Source: Cypionkella sp.
Lineage (GTDB): Bacteria > Pseudomonadota > Alphaproteobacteria > Rhodobacterales > Rhodobacteraceae
Direction of reading: 5' to 3'
Length of the DNA: 64,000 bases
Assembly (NCBI RefSeq): GCF_028290025.1
Contig: NZ_JAQGKQ010000054.1
Location: forward strand, 1 to 64,000
Each line of letters starts with the position of its first letter. Position 1 is the first letter of the stretch. This document shows positions 57,307 to 62,969 of this stretch, one piece after another. The position numbers were made by a program, and so were the translations under genes. Below the pieces are notes generated by a model. The model saw nothing but the letters and a program-made list of their open reading frames with translations, was not told where the DNA came from and did no database searches.

Positions 57307-58530
57307 TTAGCAGTGGGGGCAGGGAGGAGGCGTTTTCGGTTTGTCAGGGGCATTTCGCCTGAGCTGTCGACGGATTGCGCGCACGCGCTCGGCTGCAGCG
57401 ATGATGCGCGCTTCGTTTAGAACGCCGTCGGCAATGGCCTCCCGCACCCAGCCCACGGCTTTTTGAGGCAGGAGAGGATCATATCCAAACAGATTTTTAA
57501 TCATGATCAGATCATTTCCCGCAGCAAGAGCCTGAACGAACGCCTGTTTCCTGCGCATCAGATGGCTGATAGCGTCCATATCAATATCATCTGTCACGAT
57601 AACGCCGCTATAGCCCAGTTTTTCGCGCAAAAGCCCGGTCACGATCGGTGCTGAGAGCGTGGCGGCGCGCCCGTCTGGGGCAAGCGCGTCTAGCCGCAGA
57701 TGGCCCATCATAACCATGCCAGGCGGATGGGACGAGACAAACAACCGCGCGAAGGGCTCCATTTCGACTACGCTCCACCGTGCCGAGATATCCGCTACGC
57801 CGTAATGGCTGTCAGCAGCAGAGTGACCATGGCCGGGAAAATGTTTCGCCGCGCAAAAAACGCCGGCGCTGGCGAATCCCGCCACGAAAGCCTCGGCGTA
57901 GGCAAGGATCTGGCCGGGGTCCGTGCCATAAGATCGCTTTGGGCGGCCAATGGCGGGATTTGCAGGATCATCAAAATCCAAGACCGGACCCAGATTGAGG
58001 TTGAACCCCAAAGCGGCAATCTCGCGGCCCGCGCGCGCATAAGCCTGATGGGCCTGCCGGGGGGAGAGGGTTGCTGCAACGGTGCGGGCGGCTGGCACCC
58101 GTGAGGCGCCATGCACTGGCGTTAGGCGCTGAACAACTCCGCCTTCGTGGTCTATGGCAATCAAGGGCTGATTGTCGGCTGCGCGGAACAACGCGATCAG
58201 CCCTGTCAACTCTTTGAGGGTGCCAATGTTATGGCGGACAAAAAAGACGCCGCCGACCTCGCCGCGCCGCACCTGTCGCGCCAGCAAGCGCCCCGAGAGA
58301 GAGCGAGAGTTCGCACCGTAAAAGCCAACGATCAGCAACTCTGCCACTGCGGCAGCCAAGTCGTCACGGGTCTGGAACAGCCCAAACCAAGCCAGCGGAT
58401 AGGTGAACATTCCGCGCCCGAAGCCGAAAGCCGCCTTTGCGGCGCGGCGCAACTTTTGCGCGCGGGATTGCGGATTTTTCTGTGTTTGGATCGCGCGCCC
58501 GAACAAACCCTTTATGCTTTTTATCGCCAA
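57307..58530 (-). CDS. NagZ-like glycoside hydrolase family 3 protein
   Basis: This 407-residue protein contains the GH3 core with DHEGGVVQRLTPVHG, the catalytic-loop histidine motif KHFPGHGHS, and the nucleophile aspartate in VTDDIDMDAI. NagZ releases GlcNAc from muropeptides in wall recycling. It carries an extra basic N-terminal stretch of about 55 residues and a C-terminal tail ending in CPHC. The start is TTG (one base after the upstream stop), with a later ATG at 58410 as alternative. It is the third gene of the operon with the MurC-NRPS gene. Confidence 0.8.
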   Translation of the reverse strand: MAIKSIKGLFGRAIQTQKNPQSRAQKLRRAAKAAFGFGRGMFTYPLAWFGLFQTRDDLAAAVAELLIVGFYGANSRSLSGRLLARQVRRGEVGGVFFVRHNIGTLKELTGLIALFRAADNQPLIAIDHEGGVVQRLTPVHGASRVPAARTVAATLSPRQAHQAYARAGREIAALGFNLNLGPVLDFDDPANPAIGRPKRSYGTDPGQILAYAEAFVAGFASAGVFCAAKHFPGHGHSAADSHYGVADISARWSVVEMEPFARLFVSSHPPGMVMMGHLRLDALAPDGRAATLSAPIVTGLLREKLGYSGVIVTDDIDMDAISHLMRRKQAFVQALAAGNDLIMIKNLFGYDPLLPQKAVGWVREAIADGVLNEARIIAAAERVRAIRRQLRRNAPDKPKTPPPCPHC

Positions 58531-58531
58531 G

Positions 58532-61500
58532 TCAGACAGCTTCTAGAATGTTTCTTGTCTGCTGCGACGGTGCCGCAGCAAAATCTTTATCTGTGAAACC
58601 TTCGTTACTGCCGCCATGTCCTGACATATGCCGCAAGAGAGCAGCCGCTAGGACAATCACATTCTGCGGAGAGAAATAATGCCCATGCGATCCAGAGATG
58701 ATTTCGACCTGATGGCCCGCCGGATAGGCCGTTCGGAACAGTTGATCTGGAGCACCCATCTGGCCATAGGGATTGAGATAACTGCTTGCCCCAAAAATCA
58801 GCAGCGTTGGTGCGGGATAATGGAAGAACCGCCCCTGTTCCATGAAGATGGTTAAAGCGATCTCACGTCCTTGACGCATCAATTCCAATCCCGCCTCGCG
58901 GATCACCAGACCTCCTTGGCAATTTCCTCCAAGATATAAGACGCCGGTCGGGGCTACGGCGCTGATTTCCTCGGCATAAAGCCGTCCAAGCGCCGCAAGG
59001 TTGTCGGAGGTGTATTCAACGGCGAGATGGCCCGAGCGGAGGCCAAACACCGATGCCTGCCCTTGCATAGCCGCGCTTAGCGCCGACAATTCGTTGCCCG
59101 CTTGGAAACACCAGAATAGCTTGCGGAGGTGCTCTGGTCCGACAGCAATGCGTCTGAGTAATCCAGACTTGCCGCTAGCCTGACCCGGCCAAGTTGCAAG
59201 ATAAGGTACTATTTTGGTCGCCAGCGCATCTTTTAGCTCTGCCGAGGGCAAGACCTGCGGCATGTGTCGCTGCGCGTCCACCAGCAAGGCCAATGCCTCG
59301 ACGTTATCAAGGCCCGCCTCGAATCCGGTATCAATCGTCATCGCAAAGGCGTCTTCGATCGCAAAAAGCAGGTTTGCCATCGCCAATGAGTCGACTCCGC
59401 AGTCGCCCAAGCTATCGCGAATGCCGCTGACAACATTGGCCCCGATCAGGTCGTCGATGAGCAGCATGATCTTCGCCTCGGTCGGCGTACCAACCGTGCG
59501 CGGCTTTGTCGGTTTGGTCAAAGACGGCGGCAGCGGCAAGGCGGTGCGGTCACGTTTGCCATTGGCATTGCGAGGGATCTCTGGGATTGGGAGGAACAGC
59601 TGAGGCACCATGTACGACGGCAGGCGTTGCAGCAGCCGTTCGCGCAGTATTGCGGGATCTGGCGCGGCCATCCCCGGTGCCATGACCAGATGCGCGATCA
59701 AACGATCCGGGGCATGATCAGAGGAAAGCTGTGATACCACCGCGTCGATCACGCCATGCAGGTCACATATAGCGGCCTCAACTTCGCCGGGTTCGATCCG
59801 ATAGCCTTTTAATTTCAGCTGGCTGTCCATGCGCCCAAGATAAACAAACTGACCATCCGGACGACATTTGACCCGATCACCGGTGCGATAGATGCGAACT
59901 GTGCCCAGACCGGGAAGCTGCACCATGGGAAAGCGCGCGACGGTCAGCTCGCGTTGGTCGCGGTAGGCTTTGGCGAGACCGATGCCGAAAAGACAAAGCT
60001 CGCCTTCCTGCCCGGGGGCCACCAAGCCCAGGCTTTCATCCATCACGCAGGCACCCATATTGCGGATCGGCTTGCCGATGGTGACAGGTTCGCCCGGAGT
60101 GCAGACCGCGAACAGCGCCTCAATCGTGGCCTCTGTCGGGCCATAGGCGTTGATGAAACAACGTGTGTGGCCCCAGCGCTCGACCAGCGCCGGCGCACAA
60201 GCCTCGCCTGCGACAATCACATGGGTCAAGGCCGGATAATCTGCCTGCGGGATAATGGTCAGCGCCGACGGGGTACAGGAAACATGCGTCAGTCGGGCCT
60301 GCGCGATAAAGCGGCCGAGGGGAGGGCCGGGCACAGCCATCACATCGGTAGGATAGACAAGGCAAGCGCCGGCGACCAGCGACATCACCATATCCCCCAC
60401 CGAGGTATCAAAGCCAAAGCCGTTGATTTGCGATACGCGCGACTGAGAATTGATCCCAAACTGATCAAGCGCCGCAAGGGCATAGTTAACCATCGCCCCA
60501 CGCGAGATTTCGACCGCTTTCGGCTGTCCCGTGGTGCCCGACGTGAAGATCATGTAGGCGAGGCTGTTGGCACAGGCGGGCGGCGGGTGGACCTCAATAT
60601 GGCGGGCCGCCTCACGCTCGGGCAAAAGGCCACAATTTATAAAGCCAAGCCCCATATCGGGCAGCGCCGGGCTTGCGGCATTGACGATCACCCGGCGCGC
60701 GCCGGCGGTTTGCAACATAAAGCGCAGACGTTCCTCGGGTAGGGCCGGATCAAGCGGTACAAAAACCCCGCCTATCCTTAAAATGGCGAGAAACGAGGTG
60801 ACACGGTCAACACTACGCCCCAGACAAACACCCACACTATCGCCCGCTTTTACGTCGGCGGCGACAAGAACTGCTGAGAGATCTTGGGCGCGGCGTAGAA
60901 GATCGGCATAGCTCAGGCTGCGGTGTCCCATTTCCGCCGCAGGGGCCGTGGGATCTGTCAAAGCTCGTCTGGTAATAACTTCCAGTAAGTCAGGCGGAAC
61001 CGGGTGCTGCTTTCCCATCACGAGGCTGGGTGCGTTAAGAGGCGGGAGCGGGCAACAAAGTGCATCGGCCAGCCACGGGGCGATGCCCGCGCCGCTGGAG
61101 CCTGCCATAACAAGAATGGTGTCGCCCGCTTGGCGAACCTTTTGCAACTGCGCCCATAAATCGGACCGGTCGGAAACATGCTGGCAAGAAAGTCTCTGCG
61201 CAAGACAGGCTTCGCGTAAGGCGATATTGCCGTCTTGCCCATACGCTGTCTCGCCAAGTGCGGCCAGCGGCAGGATAAAGCTATAGTCGGCCGCCGACAG
61301 AGCTTGCGCAAATGCGGCGGCCATCTGGATCACGCGGCTATGTAACTGGGGTTCTAGGACCGTGATCACGCGTCCGGCGGTGGTGCCCCGCACGGCGGCA
61401 ATCGAAGCCGAAATCTCTGCCGGATGATGCGCGAAATCATCAATGAGGTGGATCTGGCTATTGGTTGAGACGCGTTGCAGCCGCCGCGCGATGCCGGGAA

Positions 61501-62416
61501 ACGTGGTTAAGGCTTTTGCCGCCGTGTTGAAATCTACCCCCAATTTTAGCGCCATTCCCAAAGCCGCCAGAGCATTGAGCAGATTGTGGCGTCCCGCAAC
61601 TGTGAGCGTCAGAACACCGAGTTCTGCGCCATTCAAAAAGATCGTGCTATGCCCCTGACCGTGCGGAGCCGCGCGTAGTCTGTTTGCCTCGCCAAAGCCG
61701 TAGGTGAGCGCGTCGCAACCCGTCTCGGTCAAAATCATTCGGATCGCCGGATCATCGCCACAGGCCACCAGCCTAGCCCCTGAGGGCAGGCGGGATGCGA
61801 AAGCGGCGAACGCCTGTTTCAGTCCAGGCAAGCCACCATAATGATCGGCGTGATCGTCATCCACATTGGTCAATATGGCATAATCGGGCCGCCAATGAGC
61901 CAAAGCGCCATACGCCTCGCAGGACTCGGTCACAAAGGGTGCAGCGATCTCGCCAAGACGCGCAGGGGCAATATCGCCCGAGGTAAAGGCGCCGCCCAGC
62001 ATATAGCCGAAATCCCGGCGTCCCGCTGCGTTCAAGAGATGGATGAGCATCGCCGTTGTTGTCGATTTCCCGTGACTGCCCGCCACACAAACCTTTGGCC
62101 GATCGGCAATCAGTTCAGCCAAGACCTCGGCACGCACGCGAAGAGGCACGCCCGCACGACGTGCGGCACGGCGTTCGATATGTGTCTGAGGGATTGCCGG
62201 GCTCACGACGACACAATCTGTCGCTTCGACATGGGCAGCATCCGGGTCTGAATGGGTGGCGATACCAGAAGCCGCCAAAAGAGCGAGACGTTCGGGTGGA
62301 CACAAACTGTCGCTGCCCGTTACTTTATGACCCGCTTGATTGAGCAAAAGCGCCAAGGGCAACATGCCGCTGCCGCCGATGCCGACCAAATGCAGCCGCT
62401 TTTGCTCAGACATCAC
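58532..62416 (-). CDS. MurC-type ligase fused to NRPS adenylation, carrier and thioesterase domains
   Basis: This 1294-residue multidomain protein has four parts. Residues 8-455 are a MurC-like ligase (HLVGIGGSGM; P-loop AGSHGKSTTT at 112-121; TNVDDDHADHYGG; HNLLNAL; DDFAHHPAEI). Residues about 478-960 are an NRPS adenylation domain (FTSGTTGQPKA; INAYGPTEA; YRTGDRVKC; NGKRDR). Residues 975-1050 are a carrier with Ser1010 in GVDSLAM. Residues about 1090-1265 are an alpha/beta thioesterase with G-N-Cys1166-Q-G and His1244/1246 (SHGHYF). No condensation domain is present, so the Mur ligase is a candidate for amide-bond formation. It may use a wall precursor or another acid. Substrates are not identifiable from sequence. 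Confidence 0.85.
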   Translation of the reverse strand: MMSEQKRLHLVGIGGSGMLPLALLLNQAGHKVTGSDSLCPPERLALLAASGIATHSDPDAAHVEATDCVVVSPAIPQTHIERRAARRAGVPLRVRAEVLAELIADRPKVCVAGSHGKSTTTAMLIHLLNAAGRRDFGYMLGGAFTSGDIAPARLGEIAAPFVTESCEAYGALAHWRPDYAILTNVDDDHADHYGGLPGLKQAFAAFASRLPSGARLVACGDDPAIRMILTETGCDALTYGFGEANRLRAAPHGQGHSTIFLNGAELGVLTLTVAGRHNLLNALAALGMALKLGVDFNTAAKALTTFPGIARRLQRVSTNSQIHLIDDFAHHPAEISASIAAVRGTTAGRVITVLEPQLHSRVIQMAAAFAQALSAADYSFILPLAALGETAYGQDGNIALREACLAQRLSCQHVSDRSDLWAQLQKVRQAGDTILVMAGSSGAGIAPWLADALCCPLPPLNAPSLVMGKQHPVPPDLLEVITRRALTDPTAPAAEMGHRSLSYADLLRRAQDLSAVLVAADVKAGDSVGVCLGRSVDRVTSFLAILRIGGVFVPLDPALPEERLRFMLQTAGARRVIVNAASPALPDMGLGFINCGLLPEREAARHIEVHPPPACANSLAYMIFTSGTTGQPKAVEISRGAMVNYALAALDQFGINSQSRVSQINGFGFDTSVGDMVMSLVAGACLVYPTDVMAVPGPPLGRFIAQARLTHVSCTPSALTIIPQADYPALTHVIVAGEACAPALVERWGHTRCFINAYGPTEATIEALFAVCTPGEPVTIGKPIRNMGACVMDESLGLVAPGQEGELCLFGIGLAKAYRDQRELTVARFPMVQLPGLGTVRIYRTGDRVKCRPDGQFVYLGRMDSQLKLKGYRIEPGEVEAAICDLHGVIDAVVSQLSSDHAPDRLIAHLVMAPGMAAPDPAILRERLLQRLPSYMVPQLFLPIPEIPRNANGKRDRTALPLPPSLTKPTKPRTVGTPTEAKIMLLIDDLIGANVVSGIRDSLGDCGVDSLAMANLLFAIEDAFAMTIDTGFEAGLDNVEALALLVDAQRHMPQVLPSAELKDALATKIVPYLATWPGQASGKSGLLRRIAVGPEHLRKLFWCFQAGNELSALSAAMQGQASVFGLRSGHLAVEYTSDNLAALGRLYAEEISAVAPTGVLYLGGNCQGGLVIREAGLELMRQGREIALTIFMEQGRFFHYPAPTLLIFGASSYLNPYGQMGAPDQLFRTAYPAGHQVEIISGSHGHYFSPQNVIVLAAALLRHMSGHGGSNEGFTDKDFAAAPSQQTRNILEAV

Positions 62417-62969
62417 TCAAATCCCCTTTCAGTGCGTATGCGCTGATTTTGCCCAGTTCGGCGAAAATCCGTCTTCGCCCCTCCGGGGTCTGCCACCAGG
62501 TGTCGGCGGCTAGATCGCCCGGATCGCTCGGTGGCTGGGCGACCAACCGCACCTCGGCTGGGATATGTTGACGAAGCGTCATGATCGCGCGGCGCATGTG
62601 AAACGGCTTGGCACATACGGCAATGCTCCGCACGCTCCGCCAGCCAAGTTCTTTTTCGATCATTGCCGCACCAAATGCGGCGTTTTCGAAGGAATTACGC
62701 GCGGTTTTTTCGACAAGTATCGCAGATGCTGGCACGCCTGCCGCAACCGCGTGCGCACGGTAAAGCGACCACTCTGGTGAACCGTCAATGGCTGTGCCTG
62801 CGCCTGTAATCAAAAGTCGCGGGGTCATTCCTGCGTGGTAAAGCGCGATGGCCGGAACAATGCTGCTAAGGGTTGGACTGCAAAACACAAAGGCCAAGTC
62901 CACCGCCTCAACAGGGCTTTTTGCGAACAGAAATGTGCTGATGGCGCTGCGGCTTTCAAATAAATCCAT
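62406..62969 (-). CDS. DUF218 (YdcF/ElyC-like) family protein
   Basis: This 187-residue DUF218 protein contains DLAFVFCSPTLSS, LLITGAGTAIDGSPEWSLY, ILVEKTARNSFENAAFGA and VCAKPFHMRRAIMTLRQ. ElyC-type members affect envelope and undecaprenyl-phosphate metabolism. Here it is the first gene of the MurC-NRPS operon and overlaps that gene by 11 bases. It has no membrane helix, unlike long ElyC, and resembles the short YdcF type. Confidence 0.8.
   Translation of the reverse strand: MDLFESRSAISTFLFAKSPVEAVDLAFVFCSPTLSSIVPAIALYHAGMTPRLLITGAGTAIDGSPEWSLYRAHAVAAGVPASAILVEKTARNSFENAAFGAAMIEKELGWRSVRSIAVCAKPFHMRRAIMTLRQHIPAEVRLVAQPPSDPGDLAADTWWQTPEGRRRIFAELGKISAYALKGDLSDV

Follow-up and report, generated by a model that had tools for sequence, protein, structure and literature searches.

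The first 64,000 nucleotides of contig NZ_JAQGKQ010000054.1 from Cypionkella sp. (assembly GCF_028290025.1; positions 1 to 64,000 of the forward strand, hereafter the window) contain an intact, single open reading frame (ORF) of 1294 codons in which a Mur ligase is joined to a nonribosomal peptide synthetase (NRPS) module. The fusion gene lies on the minus strand (58532..62416; likely start ATG at 62413), as do all the features described in it, and its domains follow in the order Mur ligase, adenylation (A), carrier (T) and thioesterase (TE). The Mur ligase unit occupies residues 1-455 (61052..62416), and its closest solved fold is MurC (1p31, 1p3d; TM about 0.9). It is followed by the A domain (59531..60988; about residues 477-962), the T domain (59258..59494; about residues 975-1053) with the carrier serine Ser1010 at 59387-59389, and the TE (58607..59233; about residues 1062-1270) with the nucleophile Cys1166 at 58919-58921, the boundaries of the latter two domains being approximate. 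Alignment to the MurC chain places Cys166 (61919..61921) at the position of MurC Asp175 and Leu358 (61343..61345) at that of Arg377, in the site for the incoming amino acid. Pfam searches revealed no condensation domain either in the fusion protein or in the products of the two partner genes with which it forms a cassette, and the first-pass annotation, which had described one gene uniting a MurC-type ligase with an A-carrier-TE module and devoid of a condensation domain, is borne out by the domain searches. None of the three cassette proteins matched a defence system in PADLOC. Candidate phosphopantetheinyl transferases are present in the genome.

We searched the databases for the same architecture with two whole-protein queries, the window protein and a distant member, and retained the best 120 matches of each; among the resulting 231 proteins, including the query, 113 carry a Mur ligase match. 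The Mur-A fusion is thus found in at least 113 protein clusters, and the rows with a Mur middle domain also display an AMP-binding domain in both family tables. These rows are 90%-identity clusters, two of which (P0001 and P0002) represent the window's own protein, and since they are related to each other, the counts given for the family do not correspond to independent events. A frameshift or sequencing error at the domain junction near residues 455-480, which the first-pass annotation had considered, is excluded by the existence of this family. Named sources include Paracoccus, Sinirhodobacter, Pararhodobacter, Neotabrizicola, Falsigemmobacter, Xinfangfangia, Parvibaculum, Asticcacaulis and Candidatus Baltobacteraceae. 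Genome surveys, which overlap and in which two candidates were scored per genome, so that the counts may be low, uncovered the full-length fusion in 3 of 295 genomes from the taxonomic family, 6 of 390 from the order and, with an alignment profile, 3 of 398 from the phylum; in the class survey of 385 genomes, it was seen in the window's own genome alone. In the phylum survey, 35 genomes matched, and the other listed matches start within the A part, at model position 424 or beyond. The sole listed genome of the window's genus among the 295 of the family survey (G247) lacks the fusion. Seven members of 1734-1824 residues possess some 450-500 additional C-terminal residues, which in two of them (P0045, P0157) give a glycosyltransferase-like profile match below the curated cut-off and in five (P0078, P0151, P0049, P0149, P0155) match no profile. 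Furthermore, a 572-residue Rhodobacter capsulatus protein annotated as 'Mur ligase family protein' (P0234) bears the signature of the fusions and lacks the A domain; an unrelated-looking, low-complexity end follows its Mur unit, and it looks like a broken copy.

The window protein scores below the curated cut-offs of both related ligase models: 318.1 bits against the MurC model TIGR01082 (cut-off 335.1) and 183.7 bits against the mpl model TIGR01081 (cut-off 388.7). Because the same genome encodes a separate MurC above the cut-off, the possibility that the fusion is the housekeeping copy was dismissed. To compare active sites, the 113 fusion Mur units were aligned, residue to residue and in the numbering of the Haemophilus MurC chain, with 31 MurC proteins (the 30 best-scoring loci of a 60-genome survey, in which 59 genomes had a match over the cut-off, and the window genome's own copy) and 8 Mpl proteins, which score 470-869 bits, over the mpl cut-off, and remained from 10 fetched loci after two without a frame containing the P-loop pattern had been dropped. 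PMC3060825 describes the pocket for the incoming amino acid in Haemophilus MurC as comprising Tyr346, His348, His376, Arg377 and Arg380. It assigns Glu173 and His198 to the metal and Lys129 to ATP, and states that nearly all Mur enzymes have an aspartate contacting the diphosphate, which is Asp31 in Mpl; the equivalent residue is designated here Asp49, in our own numbering.

The residues for ATP, metal and diphosphate are retained throughout the family. The P-loop lysine is present in all 111 fusions with a residue at that position, Glu173, Glu176 and His198 in 113/113, and Asp49 in 109/109; several glycines of the N-terminal loop are likewise kept, and the window protein itself possesses the P-loop lysine, Glu173, His198 and Asp49. 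By contrast, the MurC amino acid site is only partly conserved, the window residues at positions 346, 348, 376, 377 and 380 being F, H, Q, L and R. His348 is found in 112 of 113 fusions and Arg380 in 109 of 112, whereas position 346 is Phe in 94, Tyr in 8 and other residues in 11 (Tyr in all MurC, Phe in all Mpl), position 376 is Gln in 106, His in 2 and other residues in 5 (His in all MurC, Arg in all Mpl), and position 377 is Leu in 97, Met in 11, Arg in 3 and other residues in 2 (Arg in all MurC, Ser in all Mpl). Tyr346, His376 and Arg377 are each kept in 31/31 MurC and jointly lost in 101 of the 113 fusions and in 8/8 Mpl. Another set of replacements sets the fusions apart from both ligases: position 175 is Cys in 113/113 fusions and Asp in every MurC and Mpl, position 177 is Ala in 113/113 as opposed to Ser in MurC and Tyr in Mpl, and position 178, occupied by Asp in all MurC and Mpl, is Phe (51), His (50) or Tyr (12). 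With an invariant cysteine in the Mur active site (Cys166 in the window), a covalent acyl step is conceivable. A divergent MurC-like protein of 468 residues from the same class (G306, locus L141) has a GTSGKS P-loop and PHGFG in place of the MurC PHR.

The separation from MurC and Mpl is also seen in a Mur tree of 78 rows (37 fusions, 31 MurC, 8 Mpl and 2 others; quick search without bootstrap or formal test), in which MurC (support 96) and Mpl (support 100) are separate from each other and from the fusions. All sampled fusion Mur units lie on one side of a branch, the support of which is only 24, and a single origin of the fusions is therefore not shown.

The NRPS part shows the motifs of A, T and TE domains. 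The A domain scores 349.6 bits against TIGR01733, above the cut-off of 317.4; the carrier serine is kept in 110/110 fusion rows, and a PF00550 carrier match is obtained in relatives only. The TE is predicted to adopt the type I thioesterase fold with a catalytic triad, in a model without lid helices. The nucleophile is Cys in 111/111 rows, the histidine is present in 110/111, and the acid, by our own assignment, is Glu in 105 and Asp in 5 of 111. At what we take to be the code positions of the A domain, located by motif anchors, the window protein reads DTGSIAAIEK. The family consensus code, DVGSIAAVEK, had no match in the open-access literature. The ornithine code DVGEIGSIDK (PMC3992020) agrees with the consensus at 5 of 10 positions and with the variant DVGSIAAIEK at 6 of 10, and carries Asp in place of the family's Glu; naming the amino acid on this basis was rejected as too weak. 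In an A-domain tree of 36 fusions and 45 of 118 other NRPS proteins (again a quick search without bootstrap or formal test), the fusions occupy two places, one of 28 rows (support 99) and one of 8 rows (support 100), the latter joining four ordinary NRPS domains (support 98). The A codes agree with these two lineages, being of the DVGSIAAVEK type and of the DAHG type, and the Mur units of the 8 rows sit within a 27-row fusion group (support 99). The simplest reading is a single exchange of the A domain, apparently with the Mur and TE parts left in place. Thus, with two A lineages and eight Mur units nested in a fusion group, the amino-acid selector seems to have been swapped inside an otherwise intact Mur-TE frame.

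In the window, the fusion gene lies directly between its two partners, both also on the minus strand. The upstream one (62406..62969) encodes a 187-residue DUF218 (YdcF-type) protein, which matches PF02698 with 62.8 bits (cut-off 27.6) and the end of which runs 8 bases into the fusion gene, counted from its likely ATG; the downstream one (57307..58530) encodes a 407-residue NagZ-like protein of glycoside hydrolase family 3 (GH3) and starts one base past the stop of the fusion gene. We compared ten distinct loci: the window, L011 (the same place as L101), L012, L013, L093, L095, L096, L099, L100 and L182. DUF218 is directly upstream of, or fused to, the ligase gene in all ten, and across the family it forms the N-terminal front of 9 of the 113 fusions (P0072, P0074, P0075, P0079, P0081, P0122, P0123, P0124 and P0127), as it likewise does in L099 of genome G769. 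GH3 is directly downstream in six of the ten loci; L013 ends within the fusion gene and is uninformative in this respect. GH3 was rejected as an obligatory partner, given that its place is taken by an integrase-core (transposase-type) gene in L100 and by methyltransferase-domain genes in L099 and L182, which do not match each other and of which that of L182 is on the opposite strand. In 6/6 genomes examined, the window's DUF218 matched nothing but the cassette copy, whereas all six carry another GH3 gene elsewhere (29-34% identity).

Beyond the cassette, the flanks are essentially unshared between loci. Among the ORFs of at least 120 codons located beyond 44 kb on the window contig, compared at an E value of 1e-15 and without L182, only the three cassette genes and their reading-frame shadows matched the nine other loci, and a wider operon was accordingly rejected; the exceptions are weak matches of 30-31%, one between the LysR gene and L095, the other between a further ORF and L093. 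The latter locus is on plasmid pAMI4 of Paracoccus aminophilus, where the three cassette genes stand amid unrelated neighbours and an IS3 transposase gene follows GH3 at a distance of about 1.1 kb.

As for the partner proteins, the columns corresponding to the Thr-His-Glu triad of DUF218, named in PMC12176290, were assigned by eye in 19 sequences; they hold His and Glu in 19/19 and Thr in 17/19 (Ser in the window, Ile in P0074). According to PMC12176290 and PMC3879167, the DUF218 proteins SanA and ElyC affect peptidoglycan or the use of its precursors in E. coli, and YdcF is predicted to be cytosolic, with a fold resembling nucleotide-using enzymes; this literature is compatible with the cassette acting on precursors of the wall, without being proof of it. 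The window GH3 protein scores below the NagZ-type equivalog cut-off (155 vs 207 bits; NF003740) and contains the KHFPGHG...DSH and TDD segments, as in NagZ relatives (L145, L146 and L012, with L148, L149 and L152 as canonical representatives).

Collectively, these observations suggest a mechanism to which we give close to, if slightly short of, even odds: the Mur unit would activate a muramic-type acid and join it to the amine of the carrier-bound amino acid, replacing the condensation domain, and the TE would release the product. Judging from the conserved motifs, Ser1010 would receive a single amino acid activated by the A domain. The Mur unit, with its retained catalytic residues, would use ATP to convert the carboxylate of UDP-MurNAc, or of a closely related compound, into an acyl phosphate. 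This would be attacked by the carrier-bound amino group, which is proposed as the nucleophile because the site for the free amino acid has been lost. Cys1166 would then take over the acyl group for release as an acid, lactam, ester or amide. From the gene order and the fusions, the substrate or product may also be acted on by DUF218 and, in some members of the family, by the NagZ-like GH3. The comparison with Mpl matters here because the first residue of Mpl's peptide has no free alpha-carboxylate and Mpl also lacks Arg377; the pattern of losses suggests that an aminoacyl thioester, equally devoid of a free carboxylate, could be the nucleophile of the fusions.

Several results weigh against this mechanism. 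Of the 107 MurC columns that are near-invariant (identical in at least 30 of 31), only 48 are kept by at least 90% of the fusions. His70, the uracil contact of MurC, is found in 29 of the 95 fusion rows with a residue there versus 29/31 MurC, and owing to this variability UDP-MurNAc is not assured as the substrate; the retained Arg380, in turn, could still hold a free carboxylate. A counter-control search with the Mur unit alone, covering the 120 top matches (393-708 residues) out of 2622 proteins, gave nine proteins with Cys175 and Ala177 that look like truncated or partial fusions (P0232-P0240) and 111 unfused Mur ligases. Positions 177 and 377 vary together in this unfused sample: 101 proteins have Ser177 with Arg377, and 10 have neither. 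One of these ten, a stand-alone protein of 464 residues (P0241) that shares the CEAY motif with fusions and has Leu377, scores 524.3 bits against murC, over the cut-off, implying that the residue change does not depend on a fused carrier and that a MurC-type role may survive it; our confidence in the proposed mechanism is slightly lowered by it. P0241 is possibly an unfused relative of the fusions. The proposal of the first-pass annotation, in which the ligase half could form the amide bond to an amino acid loaded on the carrier, is supported in outline only, by the kept catalytic residues, the altered free-amino-acid pocket, the apparent exchange of A domains and the absence of a condensation domain, and is weakened by the ten unfused ligases without Arg377, one of them over the murC cut-off.

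The strongest competitor, which we judge unlikely though deserving of serious attention, is a two-step route. Here, the Mur unit would couple one free amino acid, or another amine, to the acid, and a second amino acid would come from the A-T-TE part through transfer by the TE. An A-T-TE module without a condensation domain is a known working unit, exemplified by MysE of mycosporine synthesis, a condensation-free NRPS-like enzyme with TE-catalysed transfer. The intact TE active site, the retention of Arg380 and His348, and the lack of Arg377 in an unfused protein above the murC cut-off are all in keeping with this route; against it is the joint loss of Tyr346, His376 and Arg377 in 101 fusions. 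Improbable in our estimate is an Mpl-like activity, in which the Mur unit would place a recycled peptide or other amine on UDP-MurNAc and A-T-TE would be tethered merely for co-supply. The fusions do resemble Mpl in lacking His376 and Arg377 and in having Ala347 and, mostly, Phe346, and part of the cassettes include a NagZ-like, recycling-type enzyme, but the sampled fusions fall outside the single Mpl group of the Mur tree, positions 175, 177 and 178 are unlike Mpl in 113/113, and the score of the window protein is far under the mpl cut-off.

Similarly poor prospects are accorded to a substrate other than a nucleotide sugar, for example anhydro-muramic acid made with the help of GH3, or an unrelated carboxylate. 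The variable His70 and the presence of GH3 in six of ten loci would suit such an acid, whereas the invariant Asp49 and the glycines of the N-terminal loop would not, and GH3 does not adjoin the fusion gene in L099, L100 and L182. Finally, the rare and patchy occurrence of the fusion and the Rhodobacter capsulatus record without an A domain might hint at a frameshift, an assembly join or a dead gene, a notion to which we assign almost no weight: 113 rows share the same order with conserved catalytic residues in the domains, and the family refutes it, as it does misassembly.

Should the carrier-bound mechanism be correct, a ligase-made bond in place of a condensation domain would represent a new way to make small peptides. 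Its broadest form is offered only tentatively, as a possibility short of the probable: a categorically new condensation chemistry in which a Mur ligase that consumes ATP and has an invariant cysteine in its active site would make muramyl-amino acids directly on a carrier and a lidless, cysteine-dependent TE would release a new class of wall-derived small molecules, all encoded by a mobile gene cassette. No description of a Mur ligase-NRPS fusion was found in the open-access literature, as judged from titles and the starts of abstracts among the best matches, with most subscription papers lying outside this scope. The first-pass annotation's view that no protein of this architecture has been characterised agrees with that result, although the architecture defines a database family rather than a singleton.

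Compared with known systems, the fusion Mur unit shares with MurC the three-domain fold and the residues for ATP, metal and diphosphate. It differs in scoring under the curated cut-off, in replacing Asp175, Ser177 and Asp178 in all 113 rows and His376 and Arg377 in nearly all, and in being joined to A-T-TE in a genome that also has a separate MurC. With Mpl it has in common the loss of His376 and Arg377, Ala347 and, in most rows, Phe346, and is set apart by its tree group, the residues at 175, 177 and 178 and the distance to the mpl cut-off. MurC is joined to another enzyme in one chain also in MurC-Ddl (NF011171) and in MurB-MurC of Verrucomicrobium (PMC4803751), where the partners are ordinary enzymes of wall synthesis and not, as here, an NRPS module. 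The order and motifs of A, T and TE correspond to those of NRPS termination modules (C-A-T-TE, where C is the condensation domain) and NRPS-like A-T-TE proteins; here, a Mur ligase takes the place of the C domain, and the TE differs from those of both groups in its cysteine nucleophile (111/111) and in the absence of lid helices from the model. BtrJ and BtrI of butirosin synthesis exemplify stand-alone ATP ligases, of the ATP-grasp fold, that acylate a carrier-bound amine as separate proteins. If the proposed mechanism is right, the fusions would resemble them in coupling an ATP-activated acid to an amino acid through its amine while the latter is held on a carrier.

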